Shown here one piece after another: positions 33,681 through 61,934 of a stretch of DNA of 64,000 bases. Both the position numbers and the translations under genes were made by a program. The DNA comes from Paludibacter jiangxiensis (lineage in GTDB: Bacteria > Bacteroidota > Bacteroidia > Bacteroidales > Paludibacteraceae). The first letter of the stretch is position 1. The number at the start of each line of letters is the position of its first letter. The notes beneath the pieces are model-generated. The model saw only the letters and a program-made list of their open reading frames with translations. It was not told the origin of the DNA and did no database searches. The stretch lies in NCBI GenBank assembly GCA_945897785.1, contig CAMDGD010000001.1, positions 1-64,000 of the forward strand. Reading direction: 5' to 3'.

Positions 33681-35840
33681 CTACTCACTATCTTTATTTT
33701 GAGCAGCATAGGCTTTTAATAGTTTGTCTTGAACATCCATCGGCACCAATTCGTAACCAGCAAATTTCATGGTAAACGAAGATCTCCCTCCGGTTAACGA
33801 ACTCAAGGTAGTCGAATAACTCGACAATTCTTTTAAGGGTACTTTCGCAGATAAAGTTTCATGTCCTCTATCACTATTCATTCCTAAAATCACAGCTCTG
33901 CGACCTTGCAAATCACTCATTACATCTCCCATCCTTTCCAATGGCACATGCACCTCAACATCATAAATTGGCTCTAATAACTTTGGTGCAGCTTCTTTAA
34001 ACGCCTGACTAAAAGCATTTCTTCCGGCTAATTTAAAGGAAATTTCGTTCGAATCTACTGGATGCATTTTCCCATCATAAATAATCACACGAACATCACG
34101 TGCATAAGAACCGGTTAATGGGCCTTCTTCCATCTTTTCCATAATTCCCTTTAAAATAGCCGGCAAAAATCTATTATCAATAGACCCACCTACAATACTA
34201 TTAATAAAAACGAGTTTTCCTCCCCAAGCTAACGGTATTTCTTGCTGGTCTTTGGCGTTAATTTTATACTCCTGCCCATTAAATTTATATAACGACGGCA
34301 ATGGCATTCCTTCCGTATAGGGTTCTATAATCATATGTACTTCAGCAAATTGACCTGCACCTCCCGATTGCTTCTTATGACGGTAATCTGCGCGGGCTTG
34401 CTTGGTAATAGTTTCTCTGTAAGGAATACGAGGCTCTTCATACTGAACCATTATTTTATCATTATTTTCAATTCGCCATTTTAAAGTGCGTAAATGAAAC
34501 TCTCCTTGTCCGTATACAATAGTCTGCTTCAACTCTTTAGAATATTCAATTATCCATGTTGGGTCTTCTTCATGCATACGAGTAAGCACCTCACTTAACT
34601 TCTCCTCGTCAGCCTCTGCTATAGCCTTAATTGCTCTTCGGTATTTATAGTTAGGATAATTAACTTCCTTAAACTGATAGGAAGCTCCTTTTCCATTTAA
34701 GGTATTACCGGTGCGCACATCCTTTAATTTTACGGTTGCACCAATATCACCTGCAACCAACTCACTTACTTTTATACGGGTTTGTCCGGCTACAACAAAC
34801 AACTGACTAATCCGTTCTTTACTACCTCTGTTTGCATTTTGTACATCATCTCCTTCTTTAATTCTACCTGACATGACCTTAAAATAAGAAACCTCACCAA
34901 TATGCGGCTCCACATTGGTTTTAAAAACAAAAACACTAGGCAAACCATTAATATCAACACAAACTTCCTTATCATCAACTGTTCTTGCTTTTGGCATTTC
35001 TGTAACAAATGGAACTACATTTCCGAGAAACTCTAGTAAACGACTAATTCCTATATGCTTTAATGCTGCAATACACACTACCGGAAAAATATCTCGGTTT
35101 GCCAAGCCTTTACGAATACCTGCGCGCATTTCATCTTCACTCAAGGTTCCAGCCTCAAAAAACTTTTCCATCAAACTTTCGTCATTTTCTGCTGCTGCTT
35201 CTATCAATGCTCCATGTAATGCCTTCGCATTTTCAATTTCTGCCTCAGGTATTGCTGTAACTTCAGGAGCACTTTTCTCTGTATTCCAAGTATAAAGCTT
35301 CATGGTTAACACATCAACAACAGCATTAAATGAAGGTCCAACTTCAATAGGGTATTGAACTGGTATAATTTTTTTGCCAAATCTTTCTTTAAGTTGATCA
35401 ATAATCATAGCGTAATTTGCTTTTTCCTGATCTAACTTATTAATTATAAACATAGCCGGCTTTTTAAATTTTTCGGCATTTTTAAACTGATTTTGTGTAC
35501 CAACCTCTACTCCGTACTGGGCATTTACACATATTGCAGCCATATCTGTTACTTGCAAAGAAGAAATTATGCTTCCTACAAAATCATCAGCTCCTGGACA
35601 ATCAATTATATTTAATTTTTTTTTACAAGATTCTACATGTACAATGGTTGAAAAAACAGAATATCCGTACTCATGCTCTACCGGAAAGAAATCTGAAACA
35701 GTATTCTTTCCATCAATGGTACCTCTACGCTTTGTAATACCTCCCTCAAAAACAATCGACTCTATTATTGTTGACTTTCCTGAACCAGAACTCCCCAAAA
35801 GAGATATATTTTTAATCTCGTTAGTTTGATATATTTTCAT
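33681..35840 (-). CDS. EF-G-like translation factor with degenerate GTPase motifs (EF-G2-like)
   Basis: A 719-residue protein with the full EF-G domain order: GTPase (1-275), domain II (about 295-375), domains III-V (about 385-700). The G1 loop is GSSGSGKS (16-23) instead of AHIDAGKT, and switch I is not the usual RGITI. The G3 motif is DCPGADDF (80-87), with Ala84 where EF-G has its catalytic His; G4 NKLD (135-138) is intact. It is therefore unlikely to be the canonical FusA. It fits the Bacteroidota EF-G paralogue group, one member of which (Bacteroides EF-G2) is known to translocate without GTP hydrolysis. It is a lone gene beyond the rpoC terminator. Confidence 0.85.
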   Translation of the reverse strand: MKIYQTNEIKNISLLGSSGSGKSTIIESIVFEGGITKRRGTIDGKNTVSDFFPVEHEYGYSVFSTIVHVESCKKKLNIIDCPGADDFVGSIISSLQVTDMAAICVNAQYGVEVGTQNQFKNAEKFKKPAMFIINKLDQEKANYAMIIDQLKERFGKKIIPVQYPIEVGPSFNAVVDVLTMKLYTWNTEKSAPEVTAIPEAEIENAKALHGALIEAAAENDESLMEKFFEAGTLSEDEMRAGIRKGLANRDIFPVVCIAALKHIGISRLLEFLGNVVPFVTEMPKARTVDDKEVCVDINGLPSVFVFKTNVEPHIGEVSYFKVMSGRIKEGDDVQNANRGSKERISQLFVVAGQTRIKVSELVAGDIGATVKLKDVRTGNTLNGKGASYQFKEVNYPNYKYRRAIKAIAEADEEKLSEVLTRMHEEDPTWIIEYSKELKQTIVYGQGEFHLRTLKWRIENNDKIMVQYEEPRIPYRETITKQARADYRHKKQSGGAGQFAEVHMIIEPYTEGMPLPSLYKFNGQEYKINAKDQQEIPLAWGGKLVFINSIVGGSIDNRFLPAILKGIMEKMEEGPLTGSYARDVRVIIYDGKMHPVDSNEISFKLAGRNAFSQAFKEAAPKLLEPIYDVEVHVPLERMGDVMSDLQGRRAVILGMNSDRGHETLSAKVPLKELSSYSTTLSSLTGGRSSFTMKFAGYELVPMDVQDKLLKAYAAQNKDSE

Positions 35841-35980
35841 AATATATTAAGATTAAATGGTTTGTGTCTACGTAATAATTTTTTAATACGATTTTCGCAA
35901 TTTAGAAATTTGTTGGCAAATTCCTTAAACATTTATTAACTAATATCCATGTTTTTCAACACGTTTTTATACATAAAACT

Positions 35981-36018
35981 AAAAAAAAAACCGAAGAAAA
36001 ATTTCTTCGGTTTTTTTT
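35981..36018 (-). terminator. Terminator of the rpoBC operon
   Basis: A-tract, stem CCGAAGAA/TTCTTCGG with a tight AT loop, and T-tract, 22 bp past the rpoC stop. It is symmetrical enough to work in both directions. Confidence 0.88.
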
Positions 36019-36039: not shown

Positions 36040-39000
36040 TTATTCTTTCATTCCTCCCACAACTGGTTCTTCAACATCCAACACATTTTTCTTGGCATCA
36101 ATCATCTTCTCGTATTCTTCTAATGAGCCGACAACAATCTTATCAAAATCACGCTGACCAGTTCCTGCAGGTATCAAATGACCACAAATAACATTCTCTT
36201 TCAAACCTTCTAATCTATCAGTTTTTCCGTTAATAGCTGCTTCGTTCAATACTTTAGTTGTTTCTTGGAATGATGCAGCCGACATAAAGCTATTGGTTTG
36301 AAGCGCTGCTCGTGTAATCCCCTGTAATATTTGATTCGAAGTAGCAGGAATAGCATCACGGACTTCAACCAAACGCAAATCCTTCCGTTTCAACATACTG
36401 TTTTCGTCACGAAGCTTTCTTGCAGTAACAATTTGTCCTGGAACAAAAGTTTGAGAGTCCCCAGCATCTAAAACTACTTTTTTGCCCCAAATTCTATCGT
36501 TTTCTTCTCTAAACTCATGCTTATCTGTATATTGCTTTTCAAGAAAACGAGTGTCTCCTGGTTCATAAATTTCGACTTTACGCATCATTTGACGCACAAT
36601 TACTTCAAAGTGCTTATCGTTAATTTTCACCCCTTGCAAACGATATACATCCTGCACTTCGTTAACAATGTATTCTTGAACGGCAGTAGGACCTTTAATT
36701 GCAAGAATATCAGCTGGTGTTATGGCTCCGTCAGACAATGGAGTTCCTGCACGAACATAATCATTCTCTTGCACAAGAATCTGACGCGAGAGTGGCACTA
36801 AATACTTTTTAAGTTCACCTGTTTTTGAGGTTACAGAAATTTCACGATTTCCCCTTTTAATTTTACCAAAATTAACTTCACCATCAATCTCTGCAACAAC
36901 TGCTGGATTTGAAGGATTTCTAGCTTCAAATAACTCTGTTACTCGCGGAAGACCTCCGGTAATATCACCAGCTTTTCCAACTGCACGAGGAATTTTCACC
37001 AACAATTGCCCAGTAACAATTTTATCTCCCTCTTCTAAAACAAGGTGAGCTCCTACAGGCAAACTATATGTTTTTATTATATTCCCTTTAGTATCAACAA
37101 TATGCGCTGATGGAATTTTATTTTTATCTTTCGATTCAATAATTACCTTCTCACGCAAACCAGTTGCTTCATCCGACTCTGTTTTAAAAGTAATATTTTC
37201 AATTACATCTTCAAACTTAATTTTACCAGAATTCTCTGCAACAATTACCGCGTTAAAAGGATCCCACTCACAAATTAGCGTTCCTTTAGAAACAAGTTCT
37301 TTATTTTTAACAAATAACTTAGATCCATACGGTACACTCTGTGTAGTAAGAATAATTTGAGTATGAGGATCAACTATACGCATTTCCGCTAAACGACCAA
37401 CAACTACTTGATATGAAGTTTTAGCTGCATCGTCTTTTACTTCAACTGTACGCAACTCTTCAATATCTACAATACCATCGTATCGAGAAGTGATACCTGA
37501 TTCTGCACCTACATTCGAAGCTACCCCCCCAACATGGAAAGTACGAAGCGTTAACTGTGTTCCTGGTTCACCAATAGATTGAGCAGCAATAACTCCAACA
37601 GTTTCTCCTCGTTGCACCATTCTGCCGTTTGCTAAATTTCTTCCATAACATTTAGCACATACGCCTTGTTTTGATTCACAAGTCAATACAGAACGAATCT
37701 CAACCCTCTCGATAGGAGAATCTTGAATTTGCTTCGCAGCTTCTTCTTTAATTTCTTCACCGGAAGAAACTATCAATTTTCCAGTTTGAGGATGTTGAAT
37801 ATCATGAACTGATACACGACCAAGTATTCTTTCATATAAAGAAGCAACAACATCTTCGTTATTTTTTAATTCTGTAGCAATTAATCCACGTAAAGTGCCA
37901 CAATCTTCTTCATTAATGATAACATCTTGCGACACATCAACTAAACGACGAGTTAGATAACCGGCATCGGCTGTTTTCAAAGCAGTATCTGCTAATCCTT
38001 TACGTGCACCGTGGGTCGAAATAAAATACTCTAACACAGAAAGACCCTCTTTAAAGTTTGCCAAAATAGGATTCTCGATAATTTGACCACCTTCAGCTCC
38101 TGATTTTTGTGGTTTAGCCATCAATCCACGCATACCGGACAACTGACGAATTTGTTCTTTAGATCCACGAGCACCTGAATCTAACATCATGTACACCGGA
38201 TTAAATCCTTGTTTATCTGATGAAAGCTGATTCATCAAAATATTCGATAATTTTGCGTTGATATGTGTCCAAGTATCAATAATCTGATTATACCGTTCGT
38301 TAAAGGTAATGAATCCCATATTATAGTTATTCAAAATCTCTTCAACTTCAGCATAACCTTCCTTAATTAACATTTCTTTCTCTTCCGGAATAATTACATC
38401 TCCAAGATTAAACGAAAGTCCACCTTTAAAGGCCATTTGGAAACCTAAATCTTTTATATCATCAAGAAATTGTGCAGTACGAGCCACACCACATTCTTTT
38501 ATAATATTACCTATAATGTCGCGTAAAGATCTTTTGGATAACAATTCGTTTATATACCCAACTGCTAGTGGTACACACTTATTAAATAAAACTCGACCAA
38601 CAGTAGTTTCAATCATCTTATCTACAAGTTCTCCGTTTTCATTTAAATCTTTGGCTAAAATGGTAATTTTAGCATGCAAAGCAACTTTCCCTTCATTATA
38701 AGCAATCTCAGCCTCTTCTGATCCATAAAATTTCAGACCTTCGCCTTTTACTCCAGCTCGTTCTTTAGTAATATAGTATAAACCCAACACCATATCTTGC
38801 GAAGGAACTGTAATTGGAGCTCCATTGGCAGGATTTAAAATATTATGAGAAGCCAACATCAACATTTGAGCTTCTAATATTGCCTCATTACCAAGCGGCA
38901 GGTGTACTGCCATTTGGTCACCATCAAAGTCGGCGTTAAAAGCAGTACAGGCCAATGGATGTAATTGAATTGCTTTGCCTTCAATCATTCGTGGTTGGAA

Positions 39001-40347
39001 AGATTGTATCCCTAAACGGTGTAGCGTTGGCGCACGGTTTAATAATACAGGATGAGCTTTGATTACATGCTCTAAAATATCCCAAACAACCGGATCTTTA
39101 CGATCAATAATTTTCTTGGCAGATTTTACTGTTTTTACAATTCCTCTTTCAATCAATTTGCGAATTACAAAAGGTTTATACAATTCCGCTGCCATATCTT
39201 TTGGAATTCCACATTCGTGCATCTTCAATTCTGGTCCGACTACAATAACCGAACGAGCAGAATAATCAACACGTTTTCCTAATAAATTTTGACGGAATCG
39301 ACCTTGTTTTCCTTTTAATGAATCAGAAAGCGATTTCAAGGGACGATTAGCGTCAGTCTTAACAGCACTTGATTTACGTGAATTGTCAAACAACGAGTCA
39401 ACAGACTCTTGTAACATCCGTTTTTCGTTACGCAAGATTACTTCAGGTGCTTTAATCTCGATTAATCGTTTTAAACGATTATTACGAATAATAACCCTAC
39501 GGTATAAATCATTCAAATCTGAAGTAGCAAAACGACCTCCATCTAAAGGAACCAACGGACGCAATTCTGGTGGAATAACCGGAACTATCTTAATAATCAT
39601 CCATTCAGGTCTATTACGATTTCTAGATGCACGAAAAGATTCTACAACTTGTAATCGTTTTAATGCTTCATTTTTTCTCTGTTGCGAAGTATCTGTATCT
39701 GCTTTATGTCGCAAATCATACGAAAGAGTGTCTAAATCGATACGAGCCAACATATCATGGATAGCATCTGCACCCATTTTTGCAATAAATTTATTGGGGT
39801 CACTATCCTCTAACAATTGATTTTCGCGAGGTAATGCCTCAATAATATCAAGGTATTCTTCTTCTGAAAGGAGTTCTCCTTGAGCAATACCCTCTTGAGC
39901 ACTAAGTATTCCAGCCTGAATTATTACATATTTCTCATAATATATAATGGTATCTAATTTTTTACTTGGCATGCCAAGTAAATAGCCAATTTTATTTGGC
40001 AATGAACGAAAATACCATATATGCGCAACAGGTACTACTAGTTGAATATGTCCCATTCGTTCGCGACGCACTTTTTTCTCAGTAACTTCTACGCCACATC
40101 TATCACAAACAATCCCCTTATATCTGATTCGCTTATATTTTCCGCAATGACATTCATAATCCTTAACGGGACCAAAAATTCTTTCGCAAAATAAACCATC
40201 TCGTTCCGGTTTATAAGTACGGTAGTTAATTGTCTCAGGTTTTAAAACCTCTCCACTCGACAAATCCAATATCTCTTCCGGAGAAGCTAAACCAATAGAT
40301 ATTTTACCAAATGTACTTTTTACTTTATTTTCTTTTCTGAAAGCCAT
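36040..40347 (-). CDS. rpoC: RNA polymerase beta' subunit
   Basis: A 1435-residue catalytic subunit. The active-site Mg2+ motif NADFDGDQ is present, as are the N-terminal zinc-finger cysteines ([19 protein letters not shown]), the C-terminal zinc-site cysteines ([13 protein letters not shown]), the rudder/bridge region and the trigger loop ([13 protein letters not shown]). It follows rpoB by 66 bp, which includes a stem-loop, and is the last gene of a long operon that begins with tRNA genes. Its C-terminal tail ([12 protein letters not shown]) is typical of the phylum. Confidence 0.99.
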
Positions 40348-48576: not shown

Positions 48577-48636
48577 AACTCAAAATTATTAATTAGTGAT
48601 TTATATTGTTTTCTAAAAACTTTTTTTTCTAAACTG

Positions 48637-48708
<72 letters not shown>

Positions 48709-48714
48709 AATCTG

Positions 48715-48787
48715 AGCGGGAAACGGGGCTCAAACCCGCGACCCTCAGCTTGGAAGGCTGATGCTCTATCAACTGAGCTATTCCCGC
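48715..48787 (-). tRNA. tRNA-Gly (TCC anticodon)
   Basis: 73 nt; acceptor GCGGGAA/TTCCCGC; anticodon loop CT-TCC-AA in a TCAGC/GCTGA stem; no encoded CCA. Six bp from tRNA-Thr(GGT). Confidence 0.95.
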
Positions 48788-48823
48788 AAAATTAATCTCC
48801 AATAAATCAATTGGCAATTAAAG

Positions 48824-48906
48824 TGGGCAGTGGTGGATTCGAACCACCGTAGGCTTACGCCAGCAGAGTTACAGTCTGCCCCATTTGGCCACTCTGGTAA
48901 CTACCC
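48824..48906 (-). tRNA. tRNA-Tyr (GTA anticodon)
   Basis: 83 nt with a long variable arm (class II); acceptor GGGTAGT/ACTGCCC with one G-U; anticodon loop CT-GTA-AC in a GCAGA/TCTGC stem; no encoded CCA. Confidence 0.95.
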
Positions 48907-48919
48907 GTAAAAAATAATG

Positions 48920-48993
48920 AGCCTCTTGTCGGATTCGAACCAACGACCCCGAGATTACAAATCACGTGCTCTGGCCAACTGAGCTAAAGAGGC
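48920..48993 (-). tRNA. tRNA-Thr (TGT anticodon)
   Basis: 74 nt; acceptor GCCTCTT/AAGAGGC; anticodon loop TT-TGT-AA; the anticodon stem (CGTGA/TCTCG) contains one T-T mismatch. First tRNA of the cluster that leads into tuf and the rpo operon; no encoded CCA. Confidence 0.92.
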
Positions 48994-49425: not shown

Positions 49426-50304
49426 TTATGCTCTTGGATGAGCTTGTTTATAAATTTTTTGTAATTGCTCAAAAGTAGTGTGTGTATATATTTCTGTTGC
49501 TGAAAGATTGCTATGGCCCAACAACTCTTTTACGGCATTTAATTCTGCACCATTATTTAGTAATGTAGAAGCAAAAGTATGTCGCAATACATGTGGACTC
49601 CTTTTTGTAAGTGTACTTCCTTGCGACATATACTTGTTAACCACATTATAAACTAATTTTGAGTACATACTACAACCGTTTCTTCTAACAAAAAACGAAA
49701 GACTACCAACATTTTCTTGCTGTGATTTTAATTTCAAGTAATCTTGCACCAAAAGCAATAAGTCTTTTCCCAATGGTATTCTTCTTTCCTTATTCCTCTT
49801 ACCTATGACCCTTAAAGATGCTGTAAAAAAATCAAAATCAGTGTCTTTAATAGTTACAAGTTCCGAAACACGAATGCCTGTCTCATAAAAAAGCGTTATT
49901 ATAAGTCTATCTCTATAAGACTCAAAAGCATCCCCAACAATTACTTCGTTAATTACAAAAGCCACTTCTTTTTCTTTAAAAAAAACAGGAAGAGGCTTAG
50001 CTGCTTTGGGTGAAATAATATTTCGCGCAGGATTTCGTTGAACTATGTTCTCGTGAATAAGAAATTTATAAAACGATTTTAACGAAGACAATTTTCTAGT
50101 AACAGAGCGAGGACTTACTCCTTCTTCCATTAAAAATATTATCCATTGACGGATGTGTTCCGAGGCAACAGCGTTAAGCGCATTTATTTGGAATTCCTTT
50201 TTTACAAACAACTCAAATTGCAACAAGTCGTTTTTATAAGACAAAACAGTATGTAAAGAATAATTCTTTTCATACTGTAAATATTGCATATACTTCTCAA
50301 TCAT
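49426..50304 (-). CDS. Tyrosine recombinase XerC/XerD-like
   Basis: A 292-residue recombinase with the SAM-like N-terminal core-binding domain (about 1-90) and catalytic residues Arg145, Lys169, His238, Arg241, His264 and nucleophile Tyr273. The gene is embedded in a housekeeping operon (rpsU-xer-hpf) with no attachment sites or cargo, so it is most likely the core dimer-resolution recombinase and not a phage integrase. Assignment to XerC versus XerD is not possible by eye. Confidence 0.93.
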   Translation of the reverse strand: MIEKYMQYLQYEKNYSLHTVLSYKNDLLQFELFVKKEFQINALNAVASEHIRQWIIFLMEEGVSPRSVTRKLSSLKSFYKFLIHENIVQRNPARNIISPKAAKPLPVFFKEKEVAFVINEVIVGDAFESYRDRLIITLFYETGIRVSELVTIKDTDFDFFTASLRVIGKRNKERRIPLGKDLLLLVQDYLKLKSQQENVGSLSFFVRRNGCSMYSKLVYNVVNKYMSQGSTLTKRSPHVLRHTFASTLLNNGAELNAVKELLGHSNLSATEIYTHTTFEQLQKIYKQAHPRA

Positions 50305-55326: not shown

Positions 55327-56208
55327 TTAATATTCCCACAAATCTTGTTCTTGATTCAAGATATCTGTTTTAATACGCATTTGTTCTCTTTTAACTTCTT
55401 CTGGAGTAGAATTGTAATCAAGAATCATACGGTTTTGAAGATTCGATTCTTTATATAAATTACTAGCAAATCGTCTTTTCATAAACAAATCATCAAAAGA
55501 CATACGCGCTCCATTATTCTTATCTGTAATCATTACTTCTCTCTGAACAAAATGTGGCCTTAAAGCATCATAAGGAATCCAGAACAATGGGAAATTTTGA
55601 ATACCAACACCCCTATCTGTTACAATAACAGGAGCAATAGAAACTATTTTAACATTAAAAGTAGATGAGTTTTTATCAAAGAACCAAACTTCTTTCAAAA
55701 AATATTTAATAACCTCTCTGTTCGGTATATCACTTTCTTCAATTTCATAAGATTTTACTTTTGTAACCGGATCAGTTTGCGTTTTATATATTACTTCAAA
55801 TTTATTTAGAAACTCCTCAAAATCTACTAAATTGTCTTTAGTGAATTTCTCATAGTTAAATTCAAAATTGAATGCAGGAACTTTTTTATCTTTAATCAAT
55901 TTAAAAATAACTGAAAACAAAGACTCACGCCCATTACCAGGTTCTTCTGGATAATACAATGGATAATTCATCTTTTCTCTTAGGTCTATCACTCTATAAA
56001 CCACTTTTTGCCAATAAATATCATCAGCTCGTGGATTTTGAAATTCAATTGGCTCTAAGTCTTCTAAGTCATATGCCGTAGGCAAATTACTAGGAATTTC
56101 TCCGAACTCGTTGAAAAAATCATTTTGTGTTGAACTCTGCGCATTTAAGGTAACAATTCCAATAAAGAATGTTACCAGCAGGATAAATAAACGATTGTAC
56201 GCTTTCAT
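55327..56208 (-). CDS. gldN: Gliding motility/T9SS protein GldN (PorN)
   Basis: A 293-residue protein with a signal peptide (1-23, cleaved near LNAQ). It carries the PorN/GldN features: DIYWQKVVYRVIDLREKMNYPLYYP, LFSVIFKLIKDKKVPAF and the late VSIAPVIV...FPLFWIPYDALRPHFVQREV segment. In the T9SS it forms the periplasmic PorK-PorN ring under the outer membrane. It is the last gene of porP-gldKLMN. Confidence 0.94.
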   Translation of the reverse strand: MKAYNRLFILLVTFFIGIVTLNAQSSTQNDFFNEFGEIPSNLPTAYDLEDLEPIEFQNPRADDIYWQKVVYRVIDLREKMNYPLYYPEEPGNGRESLFSVIFKLIKDKKVPAFNFEFNYEKFTKDNLVDFEEFLNKFEVIYKTQTDPVTKVKSYEIEESDIPNREVIKYFLKEVWFFDKNSSTFNVKIVSIAPVIVTDRGVGIQNFPLFWIPYDALRPHFVQREVMITDKNNGARMSFDDLFMKRRFASNLYKESNLQNRMILDYNSTPEEVKREQMRIKTDILNQEQDLWEY

Positions 56209-56236
56209 AATTCAATTATTTAAATTTTTCTCTATT

Positions 56237-57862
56237 CTAGTTTACTATAACTTCCATAGGAGGTAATTTTCGCTCAACTTTGTCAGGCCCCATAGCTCTA
56301 ACACCACCAATAAAAAACTTCTTTCCTTTTGAAGTTGTTCTAATATAAGCTATTTGTTGTTCTGTAAAATTAGCACCAGACGATGATAATATTTGAGACC
56401 CCATAGCACTAGACACATTTAATTCAAACCCTATCACTTTAAAATCTGCTTCAATATCAGCATCATCTAATTCAGCACCTAGTGTTGTAACATCTAGTAG
56501 AAACTTTTTAGCAATTTTTTCATTGCCTTTATATTTCATTCTATTCCCAGCATCATCTCTATAAGGAAGAAATGCAATAGGGGGTGGTAACATCTTCACC
56601 CGGAAATTTCTAGAACCCATCCGTTGATCTCTTCCATCAATTTTAGCTACAACATTAATAATGCATTCTTGACCAACCTTTGCCGGTCTTGCTATATAAC
56701 CTCCATTAGGCTTTTTAATTAATGATCCACCAACCATTGTAGCTACTACAGAAGTAGATGCTACACCCGGAACAGAAACACTAACTTCATTATCAATACC
56801 AGCATAAAACACATTCATTTGATCAGCTGAGATTGTAGCAGATGGCGCCCCAACATTAAATTCAGACTCAAACACATAAAAAGAAGAAGAACCATCGGGT
56901 CTAAATACTTTTATATACCCTCCATATTTTTGTTCACCAATAGAACTAGCCGGTCTCTCATACAATCCATCTTCAACAATCGTACCACCAACCCCATTTT
57001 TATAATCTCCTCCTACATATACTTGAGGTTTTTGAGTGGAGTCTCTTGCAGCTAATATAATACGTGCAGAATATTTCCCCCCTTGAATAACATATTTAGA
57101 CTCAGGTATAGGCAATGCTTCAATTGCATTTACGCGAAAATCATCCGCATCAACCATCCCTTTTAAATAAGTAACAACCTCCCCTTCAATACTACGCACA
57201 TCTGCCTGAATTTTAGAGAGAATTGTAGTTACAGCAGCAACAGGCATCATAGAGAAACGAGCTACTTCCCAATCTCTCAATTCGTTACCGTGTCCAATAA
57301 CTTTATCTGTTGAAAAAGTTTTTGTAATTAAACTAACTTTTGCTGTATCAGATATTACTTTAGACAATAACAAATCTCTGTATTTCTCAATGGCTTTGCG
57401 AATAACAATTCCTTTTTTGGGTCCACTTTCCTCAATACAAATCCAACCAGCAGCATCTAAGTTACTTTTAGCTTCGATATGATATCCATCAAGCGACTTG
57501 TTTTTATAAACGCCTGCTGCTTCTAACTTATCTTTTCCATCAGCATGGGCTACAATTTCAATTTTAAGATCTTCAATAGCTTGAAAAAGCTTATCAGACT
57601 CTAACCTAATATCTTTTGCTGAATTTAACCAATCACCTACCTTATCAGGATTTCGTCCATTCAAATCTTCAAACTGATAATATAAATTTACATTTCTATT
57701 TACTGAACCTTTGGTATTAATATGGAGACTCTGTTCAACCATAGAAAACCCTTCAAGTATATCGGCAGATACATTCATTGCCAACATCGCTGTTAACACC
57801 AAATACATCATGCCTATCATTTTTTGTCTCGGCGTTTCCGGACAATTCGTTGCACCACCCAT
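56237..57862 (-). CDS. gldM: Gliding motility/T9SS motor protein GldM (PorM)
   Basis: A 541-residue protein: a short cytoplasmic head (GGATNCPETPRQKMIGM), one membrane helix (about 18-36, MYLVLTAMLAMNVSA), then a long periplasmic shaft of four domains, first helical (about 40-225) and then beta sandwich repeats. With GldL it forms the proton-driven rotary motor that energises the T9SS and reaches the GldK/GldN ring. Gap to gldN 28 bp. Confidence 0.95.
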   Translation of the reverse strand: MGGATNCPETPRQKMIGMMYLVLTAMLAMNVSADILEGFSMVEQSLHINTKGSVNRNVNLYYQFEDLNGRNPDKVGDWLNSAKDIRLESDKLFQAIEDLKIEIVAHADGKDKLEAAGVYKNKSLDGYHIEAKSNLDAAGWICIEESGPKKGIVIRKAIEKYRDLLLSKVISDTAKVSLITKTFSTDKVIGHGNELRDWEVARFSMMPVAAVTTILSKIQADVRSIEGEVVTYLKGMVDADDFRVNAIEALPIPESKYVIQGGKYSARIILAARDSTQKPQVYVGGDYKNGVGGTIVEDGLYERPASSIGEQKYGGYIKVFRPDGSSSFYVFESEFNVGAPSATISADQMNVFYAGIDNEVSVSVPGVASTSVVATMVGGSLIKKPNGGYIARPAKVGQECIINVVAKIDGRDQRMGSRNFRVKMLPPPIAFLPYRDDAGNRMKYKGNEKIAKKFLLDVTTLGAELDDADIEADFKVIGFELNVSSAMGSQILSSSGANFTEQQIAYIRTTSKGKKFFIGGVRAMGPDKVERKLPPMEVIVN

Positions 57863-57921
57863 ATACTATAGTAATATTATTATATTAATAAAAAAAAATA
57901 ATTAATAATCAGTGGACTATT

Positions 57922-58737
57922 TTATATTGATAATGCATTAAGCATATTACCGTATACTGTATTCAAACTTGTAATTTGTTGAGCCATTTTAGACGCTTGA
58001 TCTTTGAACGAATCAACATCTTTCAAAGATTCTGAAACTGAAGCATTTATTTTAGATAAACCAGTATTTACAGATTTAATAGATTCACTTTGATCTCCTA
58101 CTGACTTTAATTGGATTTCGTAAATAGAATTAATTGCAGAAAGATTTTTATTTACATCTTTCATGGTTAGAATAAAACTAGCTGTTGACTCTTGAGCAGT
58201 ACCAAGTTCAGTTGCGATTGTTTTATATGAACCCACTAAAGCTTCTGATGAAGCATTAATTTGCACTTGTGTGTTGGTAAACCCTGCAACAGAATCAGAA
58301 GCAGCAGTCATATTTGACACCAAAGAACTTGTTGCACCAGCTAAAGCAGATAAATCTGATATCTTAGCAGCTGTATCAGATAACTTTGCAATACCTAATG
58401 ATAATTTATCCATTTCATCATTTGACATTGAAGAAACATTGTCTATATTTTGTAGTCCTTTTAAAGCTGTTCCACTCTCACCAATTTCGACATGTTCTTC
58501 TCCAGATAATTGAGGGAACACCTTTTCCCAATGAGGGGATTTGTGTGGATTTGCGAAAGCAGTAAGTGCAAATAAAACTGCCTCAGTACCCATTCCTGCT
58601 GTTAACATCATTGACGCTCCAGGCCAATGTTGAATTTTAAATAAGGCACCAACGATTACAATTGCTGCTCCAAAACTAAAAGCATAACCCACTACTCTCA
58701 TCCCTTGTGGGGTATCCATCCAATCTCCTATAGTCAT
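57922..58737 (-). CDS. gldL: Gliding motility/T9SS motor protein GldL (PorL)
   Basis: A 271-residue protein with two membrane helices (about 14-33 and 40-60, separated by the conserved FKIQHWPGA turn) and a cytoplasmic, Ser/Asp/Lys-rich helical tail (about 100-271), likely coiled-coil. The conserved Glu in the second helix (GMGTEAVLFAL) is the expected proton-path residue. Part of the GldLM motor. Confidence 0.95.
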   Translation of the reverse strand: MTIGDWMDTPQGMRVVGYAFSFGAAIVIVGALFKIQHWPGASMMLTAGMGTEAVLFALTAFANPHKSPHWEKVFPQLSGEEHVEIGESGTALKGLQNIDNVSSMSNDEMDKLSLGIAKLSDTAAKISDLSALAGATSSLVSNMTAASDSVAGFTNTQVQINASSEALVGSYKTIATELGTAQESTASFILTMKDVNKNLSAINSIYEIQLKSVGDQSESIKSVNTGLSKINASVSESLKDVDSFKDQASKMAQQITSLNTVYGNMLNALSI

Positions 58738-58776
58738 AATACTAAAAATTTAAGGTTAATAGAATTTATTATAATC

Positions 58777-60201
58777 TTATCTTTGTCCTTCAATAAAACT
58801 TCTGATACATCTAAAGCCGATATACGATTTGCTTTCTTGTTGATATTCATAAGTTCTAGCACCACATTGAAGATACGCACCAATATCTTTCCAAGATCCA
58901 CCTTTGATAACTTTTCTTCTTTTTACATCCGGATCAGATGTTTTTGCGTTTTGTTGATATTCAGGATTCATATCATGAACAAAGCTCAAAGTTGATTCAG
59001 TATAAACTGATGATGTCCATTCAGAAACATTTCCAGACATATCATAAATACCATAATCATTCGGAGGATATGCAGCAACAAAAGCTGTAATCATATAACC
59101 ATCATCAGTATAATTCCCTCTTAAAGGTTTAAAGTTGGCTAAGAAACAACCTTTAGCTGTTCTAATATAATTCCCTCCCCAAGGATACATTGCCAAATCT
59201 CTACCTCCACGAGCAGCATATTCCCATTCAGCTTCGGAAGGAAGCCTCCAATCTTGAACAAGAGGCCCTTTTGTAGCCACCTGATATCCATTAAACAAAC
59301 GAGTTCTCCAATGACAGAAGGCCACAGCTTGTTCCCATGTTACACCAACAACAGGATATTCTCCATAACCGGGATGCGACAAATACATTTTCATGTAAGG
59401 CTCATTGTAAGCATAAGTAAAGTCTCTAATCCAGCATAATGTGTCCGGATAAACATTTAATATCTTAGTAGAGATAAAATCTGCTCTTTTTTTCAATGGA
59501 CGATAAATTGTTCTATTAACAATAAATCCATTTTCGTCACGATAAGTAGTATCTTTTTTAATCATAACATCAGCACTATCTCTAGTTACTCCTAATCCAT
59601 CTGTACTTCTATCATACCCACTTTTCAATGAATTAAACTTATTGACTTTCATAGCTGCCTGTTTGTAATCCACAAAATCAAATTTATAATTCAACACTGT
59701 TCCATTTAACTGAGGCACTAATTCAATAGCATCTTCACCCACATAGTACATACTATCTAAAGCTCTTTTTTGATCTTCGTTAGCTCTACCCCAAGGAATA
59801 GGTTTGTCCCAATTTAAATGAGGAGGGATTTCATTTCCTTTACGGTCTTGTGTTATTTTATAAGCCTCATCACCTCCGATAGCCGGATTAGCAAGTCTTT
59901 CTCTGGCAATTGAATCGCGTACATAAATTATAAATTGACGATACTCACCATTAGTGACTTCAGTTTCGTCAATCCAAAATGCATCTACAGACACAGTTTT
60001 TGACTGTGAATTCATTGCCCAATTTGCATCTTGGTCGTTATTACCTGTGGTAAAAGACCCTCTATTAACAAACACCATCCCGAAAGGAGAAGGATCAGTC
60101 CAAGAACGAGAGAAAACACCAACCAACTCTCCGTTTCCTTGATTACTTCCGCAGCTAACTATAGCTAAAAGTAAGGTAGAAAAAATCAATAACTTTTTCA
60201 T
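58777..60201 (-). CDS. gldK: T9SS/gliding lipoprotein GldK (PorK)
   Basis: A 474-residue lipoprotein: lipobox IVSC with Cys17, then a formylglycine-generating-enzyme/SUMF1-like domain (GMVFVNRGSFTTGNN..., FWIDETEVTNGEYRQFI, ...PVVGVTWEQAVAFCHWRT, WRLPSEAEWEYAARGG, GNVSEWT, KGGSWKD). In T9SS this fold is structural, not catalytic; it builds the PorK-PorN ring. Gap to gldL 39 bp. Confidence 0.95.
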   Translation of the reverse strand: MKKLLIFSTLLLAIVSCGSNQGNGELVGVFSRSWTDPSPFGMVFVNRGSFTTGNNDQDANWAMNSQSKTVSVDAFWIDETEVTNGEYRQFIIYVRDSIARERLANPAIGGDEAYKITQDRKGNEIPPHLNWDKPIPWGRANEDQKRALDSMYYVGEDAIELVPQLNGTVLNYKFDFVDYKQAAMKVNKFNSLKSGYDRSTDGLGVTRDSADVMIKKDTTYRDENGFIVNRTIYRPLKKRADFISTKILNVYPDTLCWIRDFTYAYNEPYMKMYLSHPGYGEYPVVGVTWEQAVAFCHWRTRLFNGYQVATKGPLVQDWRLPSEAEWEYAARGGRDLAMYPWGGNYIRTAKGCFLANFKPLRGNYTDDGYMITAFVAAYPPNDYGIYDMSGNVSEWTSSVYTESTLSFVHDMNPEYQQNAKTSDPDVKRRKVIKGGSWKDIGAYLQCGARTYEYQQESKSYIGFRCIRSFIEGQR

Positions 60202-60230
60202 ATCAATTAATTATATATGTATTCACAAAT

Positions 60231-61178
60231 TTATAAAACTCTAACACTTTTATATTTATTCAATTTGTTTTTCTCCAAATTTATATTGTAACGCAAAACT
60301 AACTCAAGTGAGCCAAATGAATAAGCAATTATTCTTGTAGTTGGCAAATCGTAAGCAAAACCAACAGTTAAGCCGTTTATAAGATTAAGCCCTCCAAAAA
60401 AAACTATGCAATCTTGCAACCTCCAACTTAACCCCAACCAATACTTTTCATCTTTTTCTATGCGTGCACTTAGGTCCGATTGAAAAGAGATAAAATCTGT
60501 TTTTAGCAAAAGGGATGGTTTTACTACATACCTGACATTTTTTAAAGGTAGTGTGTATCCTGCTGTAAAGTAAGCTGTTCTACCAATAAAACTATTAATG
60601 TAATCATCCATTTCCAATTGAGGTTGAAATAAGTGCAAAACAGACAAACCAAGATAATAACGAGGGCTTACATACATTACCCCAAGACCATAATCCATTG
60701 CTACATCATTAACAGATTGCTTTGGAATTGCCATATCTCCACTAATATCATGGTAATCACTTTCAACTAAGCGAACACTGTCGCCATTTATTGTTTGACT
60801 TATAAAGCCAAGATTTGCACCAACATTCAGCGACGCTTCGCCTATTTGGTATTTTAAAGCATATTGAAAATTCACACTTTGGTTAGAAAAAATTCCAAAC
60901 TTGTCATTAACAAAAGCTATGCCAACACCTTGTTTCTTATCAAAAAAAGCTTTAAAAGGCATATTTGCAGCAAAAAAATTAGTTTGAGGGGCATTTGGAA
61001 TACCAACCCATTGTTGTCTATGCAAGCCTATTAAATTAATTCCTTTATTATTCGCCAAAACAGAAGGGTTATAACTTTCGGCAGCAAACATATACTGGCT
61101 TATTTGCGGATCACTCTGTCCTCTAACAGAGAAATTAAAAAAAAGCACGGAACAAAGTACTAAAAAAAAAAATCTCAT
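60231..61178 (-). CDS. porP: PorP/SprF-family T9SS outer-membrane protein
   Basis: A 315-residue protein with a signal peptide (1-20, near VRGQ) and a PorP/SprF barrel: SDPQISQYMFAAESYNPSVLAN, GLHRQQWVGIPNAPQT, VGIAFVNDKFGIFSNQ and the late FGGLNLINGLTVGFAYD. It is the first gene of the T9SS operon and 29 bp ahead of gldK. PorP works with PorK/N/E in anchoring the trans-envelope complex. Confidence 0.93.
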   Translation of the reverse strand: MRFFFLVLCSVLFFNFSVRGQSDPQISQYMFAAESYNPSVLANNKGINLIGLHRQQWVGIPNAPQTNFFAANMPFKAFFDKKQGVGIAFVNDKFGIFSNQSVNFQYALKYQIGEASLNVGANLGFISQTINGDSVRLVESDYHDISGDMAIPKQSVNDVAMDYGLGVMYVSPRYYLGLSVLHLFQPQLEMDDYINSFIGRTAYFTAGYTLPLKNVRYVVKPSLLLKTDFISFQSDLSARIEKDEKYWLGLSWRLQDCIVFFGGLNLINGLTVGFAYDLPTTRIIAYSFGSLELVLRYNINLEKNKLNKYKSVRVL

Positions 61179-61319: not shown

Positions 61320-61541
61320 TCAATACTCTTCTTCATTAAAGAAAAAATCTTCTTTACTCGGATAATCAGGCCATATATCCTCAATACTTTCGTATATTTC
61401 ACCCTCATCTTCAATCTCTTGTAAATTTTCAATTACCTCTAAAGGGGCACATGATCGCATGGCATAATCTACTAATTCATCCTTTGTTGCCGGCCATGGG
61501 GCATCTTCTAATTTAGAAGCTAACTCTAGCGTCCAATACAT
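61320..61541 (-). CDS. DUF2795-family small acidic protein
   Basis: A 73-residue, strongly acidic protein (LEDAPWPATKDELVDYAMRSCAPLEVIENLQEIEDEGEIYESIEDIWPDYPSKEDF...). The ATKDELVDYA-like start is the DUF2795 signature. Common in Bacteroidota and of unknown function. A promoter sits 58 bp upstream; the gene stands alone between the T9SS operon and a methyltransferase. Confidence 0.85.
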   Translation of the reverse strand: MYWTLELASKLEDAPWPATKDELVDYAMRSCAPLEVIENLQEIEDEGEIYESIEDIWPDYPSKEDFFFNEEEY

Positions 61542-61934
61542 AATTATTAAGTCTTTGATCTTTTAATTCCTTGAGGTTTTCATCCCTTAAATTGCATGCA
61601 AAAATAAAAGAAAATATATTACAAACAATTTTTATATATAAAAAACTTCTACTGCCTTTGTAAATTCAGTGTTTACAAAAAAATCACACAAATCATGAAA
61701 AAAAATAGCTGTTTATTTTATTAAAATAAGAACATAAAAAAAATATTTAAAAAAAAAATATAAGTTATTAATAGAAAGAGTTTTAATCAATATTTAACCA
61801 AGAGCACATACAATAAGAATATTGCTCTTTAAAAACTTAAAGGTTATATATTCGCAGAAAAAATGTTTCACAACACATTTTACTATTACTACAAAAAACA
61901 AATCTACTACCACTTTTATAGCAAGCTGCTTTAT
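61542..61934. other. 393-bp AT-rich intergenic region
   Basis: Very AT-rich, with runs of A around 61735-61760. It contains the DUF2795 promoter at its left end. A short inverted repeat (AAGAGCA 61800-61806, TGCTCTT 61823-61829) is weak. I see no ORF or RNA gene. Confidence 0.45.
61599..61628 (-). promoter_or_regulatory. Promoter of the DUF2795 gene
   Basis: On the minus strand, -33 TTG (61628-61626) and -7 TATTTTTG (61606-61599) are 19 bp apart, a good Bacteroidota promoter match. Confidence 0.6.

Follow-up and report, generated by a model that had tools for sequence, protein, structure and literature searches.

An EF-G2 (fusA2) orthologue downstream of rpoC in Paludibacter jiangxiensis, with a substituted switch II histidine and a putative Cur-type operator

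The EF-G2 gene, its protein and its family

The window, that is the whole 64 kb stretch of Paludibacter jiangxiensis DNA analysed here, carries on its minus strand an intact reading frame, genuine by ORF check (33681-35840), which opens with ATG and encodes a protein of 719 aa identified by profile and structure matches as EF-G2, a fusA2 orthologue of the EFG II subfamily. Its upstream neighbour on the same strand is rpoC (36040-40347, recognised by translation), which ends 199 bp before the EF-G2 start. A domain search found EF-G domains I to V, in agreement with an earlier note made from the sequence alone. The same note had described G1 as degenerate and switch I as unrecognisable, and neither description held. 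The P-loop, GSSGSGKST (G1, residues 16-24; 35769-35795, minus strand), differs from the AHIDAGKT of canonical EFG I but is an intact GxxxxGKS, and the GxxxxGK[ST] form was found in all 220 EFG II sequences aligned here, the GSSGSGKS of the window included. Switch I ends in EYGYSV (G2, residues 57-62; 35655-35672, minus strand), the published Bacteroidetes EFG II pattern: according to the cited part of Margus et al., EFG II proteins lack RGITI in G2 and carry Ser in the fourth place, the Bacteroidetes members having YGYSV (PMC3150367). In the alignment, Ser61 occupies the place of the Mg-binding Thr. The substitution in G3 was confirmed, DCPGADDF (residues 80-87; 35580-35603, minus strand) carrying Ala84 (codon 35589-35591) in place of the switch II His and aligning there to His87 of T. 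thermophilus EF-G, and G4 is retained as NKLD (residues 134-137; 35430-35441, minus strand), both as the note had read them. In domain IV, loop I (YRHKKQSGGAGQFAE; 34341-34385, minus strand) bears the EFG II lysines K489 and K490 and is followed by an insert of 27 residues (about 510-536; 34233-34313, minus strand), which is absent from canonical EF-G and in which the AlphaFold model places two short strands.

The protein scored 1283.4 bits against NCBIfam NF058620 'EFG2_Bacteroid' (cut-off 1000; model positions 1-717 of 717), a family match beyond chance, and 495.5 bits against TIGR00484, the canonical EF-G model, below its cut-off of 659.4; RGITI and DTPGH are missing from it. The best solved chain was 7uvp/8dmf (1170 bits), the latter entitled 'Cryo-EM structure of the ribosome-bound Bacteroides thetaiotaomicron EF-G2', with 69% identity over 717 residues, a structure comparison Z of 50.3 and an rmsd of 3.4 for the AlphaFold model (pLDDT 89.5, pTM 0.80). 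Seven canonical EF-G entries from bacteria and mitochondria outrank 8dmf by Z, up to 54.6 for the closest, ribosome-bound E. coli EF-G (9rtu), which is attributed to conformation rather than to kinship. The chain of 7uvp/8dmf is named 'Tetracycline resistance protein TetQ' despite the EF-G2 title, a label that misleads annotation by transfer.

The B. thetaiotaomicron (Bt) protein (BT2167, fusA2; 8dmf/7uvp; NF058620) shares the domain layout and the insert, aligns over the full length and likewise has a small residue for the switch II His, Ser in 8dmf as against Ala84 here; its G4 is NQLD, whereas the window protein has NKLD. Margus et al. tabulate 13 EFG II positions (their Tables 1 and 2), of which EF-G2 has 11; the features shared with the Bacteroidetes sub-subgroup, as given in the cited part of that paper, include YGYSV, Gly16, Ser61, Thr308, Gly352, Lys371, Lys489 and Lys490, and the mismatches are Ile25 for Leu and Leu563 for Glu (PMC3150367). 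Canonical EF-G (EFG I, the str-operon fusA) has the same five-domain fold but carries RGITI and the switch II His, neither of which is present in EF-G2, and lacks the insert. The nearest named relative is a protein from a Paludibacteraceae metagenome-assembled genome (78% identity). At E <= 1e-200, EF-G2 matches occur in 226 of the 247 genomes sampled from the order and in 44 of 61 from the family.

A canonical fusA follows rpsL and rpsG in a str operon on contig 33, separate from the EF-G2 contig, and keeps AHIDAGKT, RGITI and DTPGH (gene names taken from translations; assembly of 1.9 Mb in 77 contigs, 85.8% complete). The earlier note had asked whether a second, canonical fusA lies elsewhere and would have taken its absence as a refutation; the gene is present, and the reading of the note stands on this point. 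Together, these comparisons identify the gene at the level of sequence and structure as the orthologue of Bt EF-G2 and the fusA2 of its genome; the protein is one more example of an already known kind.

Putative starvation control and the rpoC neighbourhood

In Bt, BT4338 activates fusA2 through a 22-bp palindrome; the gene ranks first in enrichment among the BT4338 targets, and carbon limitation induces it 238-fold, according to the cited part of PMC6989115. BT4338 is Cur, a protein of the Crp family (PMC10994844, PMC3878776 and PMC5061871, in the passages cited), and Cur control of fusA2 was also reported for B. ovatus, B. fragilis and B. vulgatus (PMC10294740, cited part). A Cur/Crp-type operator-like palindrome, CGTGTTGAAAAACATG (35948-35963, minus strand), starts 123 bp before the ATG of the window gene; an upstream Cur-type site would be a feature common to the two genes, and both genomes have a canonical fusA elsewhere. 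The Bt site, as published in the cited part of the source, matches 12 of the 14 consensus bases and that of the window 10. A plain count of 10 of 14 is insignificant, 61% of shuffles reaching it; the support for the window site comes from a trained matrix and from position. By a matrix trained on other genomes, on sites with 12 or more of 14 matches to the published consensus, the palindrome at -123 scored 16.3 bits, a value attained by none of 1000 dinucleotide shuffles (largest 15.5). With 30 loci of its own family as well as L176 and L177 left out of the training, a set in which named same-family loci may remain, it scored 16.6 bits, again above all 1000 shuffles (largest 11.4). Matrix sites of EF-G2 genes from the same genus and nearest kin lie at -128 (L064), -113 (L068) and -123 (L176). 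Within the 64 kb of the window, two places exceed 11 bits, one of them being the EF-G2 palindrome. The window's strongest Cur-type palindrome, TGTGTTGTGAAACATT (61862-61877, 19.1 bits), lies about 320 bp upstream of an ORF of 73 aa (61320-61541, minus strand) and ahead of PorP-like and gldKLMN (type IX secretion) genes at 55327-61178.

Across relatives, a strong operator was defined as at least 12 of 14 matches to the published Bt core with a start at -160 to -90, and upstream regions could be scored for 136 of 141 inner Bacteroidales genes (the five with under 300 bp are missing) and for 63 of 64 from other groups. Strong operators were present in 68 of the 136 inner Bacteroidales regions and in none after shuffling, with 0 in the control stretch from -250 to -180 and 1 in that from -86 to -16; after removal of near-duplicates the count was 62 of 123, with 0 and 1 in the same control stretches. 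None was found at -160 to -90 in the 63 regions from other groups, in 16 deeper-group rows and two near-canonical ones taken together, at 15 canonical genes or at 20 lower-scoring Bacteroidales genes outside the inner clade. By analogy with Bt fusA2, the EF-G2 gene of the window is probably under a similar starvation switch.

An intrinsic-terminator-like hairpin of 16 pairs with a T run (35983-36018, minus strand) lies between rpoC and EF-G2, and since the putative operator is downstream of it, EF-G2 most likely has its own promoter. The Bacteroides-type -7 box has the consensus TAnnTTTG. A weak match in the window, GGAATTTG (4 of 6; 35917-35924, minus strand), 23 bp after the operator, is a tentative candidate for such a box, at a spot where relatives match the consensus better. 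Behind the 62 strong operators, TAnnTTTG matches of at least 5 of 6 showed no overall excess (47 versus a shuffle mean of 46.4) but were clustered, with 11 at 23-25 bp (2.6 expected; largest of 500 shuffles 9) and 13 at 31-33 bp (2.6 expected; largest shuffle 8), both ranges having been picked post hoc from a first count; the nearest relative of the window EF-G2, L176, has a 6-of-6 box at 25 bp. Co-transcription of rpoBC and EF-G2 was considered and is unlikely, given the terminator-like hairpin and the rarity of the arrangement: among the 131 further inner Bacteroidales loci with at least 1 kb upstream (ten of the 141 have too little flank), just two, L064 (same genus) and L176, have rpoC ahead of EF-G2 on the same strand. 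At L051 rpoC converges on EF-G2 from the other side, and at L068, also of the same genus, no rpoC occurs within the flank. Of 14 canonical fusA loci from elsewhere in the phylum, nine have the end of rpoC a short way upstream. A rearrangement may have placed the EF-G2 paralogue where str genes stood, behind rpoC. Elsewhere in the window, a recombinase of the phage-integrase family (49426-50304) lies near a tRNA gene cluster (48636-48993).

Two Crp-type genes in the genome exceed the family cut-off, L101 on contig C58 and L102 on contig C26. Of 41 genomes sampled from the family, 37 gave an L101 match; most of them have their best L102 match at the place of the L101 relative, at lower identity. 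Among 25 readable L101 relatives, 13 have a palindrome match of at least 11 around the opening of the frame; inside the gene the figure is 2, and in shuffled sequence 5 (25 parsed loci of 30, the window genome's own locus being among the five left out), and that at the genome's own L101 gene scores 8.7 bits. L101 is put forward as a tentative candidate for Cur on these sequence comparisons; a further reason for caution is that an L101 gene also occurs in some family members with no EF-G2 match (for example G394 and G395).

Mode of action and alternative readings

Taken jointly, the gene is very probably a fusA2 orthologue that would be induced on starvation by a Crp-family activator and whose product would translocate without the usual GTP hydrolysis, the regulation and the biochemistry being carried over from the Bt orthologue. 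On exhaustion of good sugars, a Crp-family activator of the Cur (BT4338) type would bind the putative operator and induce EF-G2, which would bind GTP and the ribosome; its domain IV would then drive slow translocation of tRNA and mRNA without the usual GTP hydrolysis, and some protein synthesis might thereby be kept up at low energy cost. The cited part of PMC10294740 states that EF-G2 'enables GTP-independent translation'. The overall interpretation of the earlier note, a member of the Bacteroides EF-G2 group that may help translation under starvation, is supported by the family assignment (NF058620 above cut-off, 69% identity to 8dmf), by the canonical fusA elsewhere and by an upstream palindrome resembling the sites of Cur, a regulator active in starvation.

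The note had also judged efficient hydrolysis unlikely, partly from the missing His, which is too strong a conclusion from the His alone. The His is indeed absent, but its loss alone leaves loss of GTPase activity unproven, since the H91A mutant of E. coli EF-G still hydrolyses GTP, at 28 versus 202 per second, about sevenfold slower, with Pi release at 0.32 versus 28 per second (PMC4532990, cited part). Retained hydrolysis in both H91A and H91Q (PMC4532990) speaks for the alternative that the window gene encodes an ordinary hydrolysing EF-G paralogue, a backup elongation or recycling factor that tolerates the loss of the His, as may hold for Thermus EFG II, and so do the higher intrinsic GTPase of T. 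thermophilus EFG2 (Connell et al., as cited by Margus et al., PMC3150367, in the passage used here) and the intact P-loop, G2 Ser and NKLD of EF-G2. We nevertheless regard this alternative as unlikely: the closest characterised protein, Bt EF-G2, lacks GTPase activity by the title of its paper, and the insert and the small residue at position 84 are common to it and the window protein. The authors of PMC4532990 also mention that H91A had previously been described as fully inactive, a result that would favour the reading of the His loss given in the note.

A region of 26 residues reportedly underlies the lack of GTPase activity in Bt EF-G2 (Han et al. 2023), and this region would correspond to the insert found here. 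It is very improbable that the gene is a functionless paralogue, in decay or of foreign origin: its unusual location, with rpoC ahead in only two of the 131 other loci, would speak for this, but the frame is intact, identity to the nearest named relative is 78%, the family occurs in 226 of the 247 genomes of the order at E <= 1e-200, and the tree described below places the protein among its own genus and closest kin. A tetracycline ribosomal protection protein, as the chain label of 7uvp/8dmf would have it, is hardly credible, the scores of 124.1 bits for Tet(Q) (cut-off 1425) and 246.8 for tet_protect (cut-off 775) lying far below those thresholds and refuting the identity, and the 8dmf title naming EF-G2.

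Histidine loss and insert length across Bacteroidota

Alignment of 237 rows covered 17 canonical and 220 EFG II sequences. The EFG II set comprised the window protein, 141 inner Bacteroidales, 14 of a deeper group and 64 members of the phylum belonging to other orders and classes; matches in the phylum at E <= 1e-100 include canonical EF-G. The inner Bacteroidales rows were taken as the best-scoring matches, so that this sample leans to the Bacteroides side, and the proteins of L068 and L177 in it are identical. The switch II His was present in all 17 canonical rows and in 0 of the 220 EFG II rows, nor did any of 20 further, lower-scoring Bacteroidales rows have it; it is therefore lacking in 240 of 240 sampled EFG II rows of the phylum, including 141 of 141 inner Bacteroidales other than the window. 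Its replacement is Ser (91), Ala (49) or Gly (1) in the 141 inner Bacteroidales; Tyr predominates in the rows from other orders (43 of 64) and in the deeper group (12 of 14), whereas the 20 lower-scoring Bacteroidales have Ser, Ala, Leu, Phe, Met, Gly or Pro.

The interval spanning the insert (508-538) measures 4 to 12 residues in canonical rows (4 in 14 of 17), 4 in all 14 deeper-group rows, 22 to 24 in the 64 rows from other orders and 31 in every one of the 142 inner Bacteroidales, the window counted in, which thus exceeds most canonical rows by 27; the 20 lower-scoring Bacteroidales have 31 or 32 residues in 18 cases and 22 in two. Trees were built from 112 of the 237 rows and from these together with the 20. 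The larger one, of 132 rows, computed with the insert and His columns excluded and confined to canonical EF-G and the EFG II of Bacteroidota, was rooted on canonical EF-G by assumption; the 17 canonical rows form one side of a branch with SH support 100. On the larger tree a single change accounts for the His state, and three changes are required for the three insert classes.

These comparisons suggest an order of events in which the His was lost first, the insert grew from 0 through 18 to 27 residues and the strong operator then appeared. With the loss of the His earlier than the insert, there are natural proteins that show only one of these two changes, and if the series holds, it would let the His and the insert be told apart as the cause of abolished GTP hydrolysis. 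It is conceivable, though we advance it tentatively, that the loss of the His, and perhaps that of efficient GTP hydrolysis too, is ancestral to the EFG II of Bacteroidota and predates both Cur control and the insert in its full length. In that case translocation at low energy cost would be a trait of the whole phylum, not a gut adaptation, and the inner Bacteroidales would later have put it under a starvation switch. The series of His, insert and operator was not found in the literature searched, but the primary paper on Bt EF-G2 may discuss it; the cited part of Margus et al. maps indel regions of EFG II and gives G3 as DxPG with the His unnamed (PMC3150367), and the cited part of PMC4342817 does not deal with the matter. 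The series is a modest evolutionary extension, and the part of this work that is apparently new.

The Lys of NKxD varies within the inner clade: of the 141 relatives, 134 have Gln or His, one has Tyr and only 6 share the Lys of the window protein (NKLD), whose handling of the nucleotide may therefore differ.
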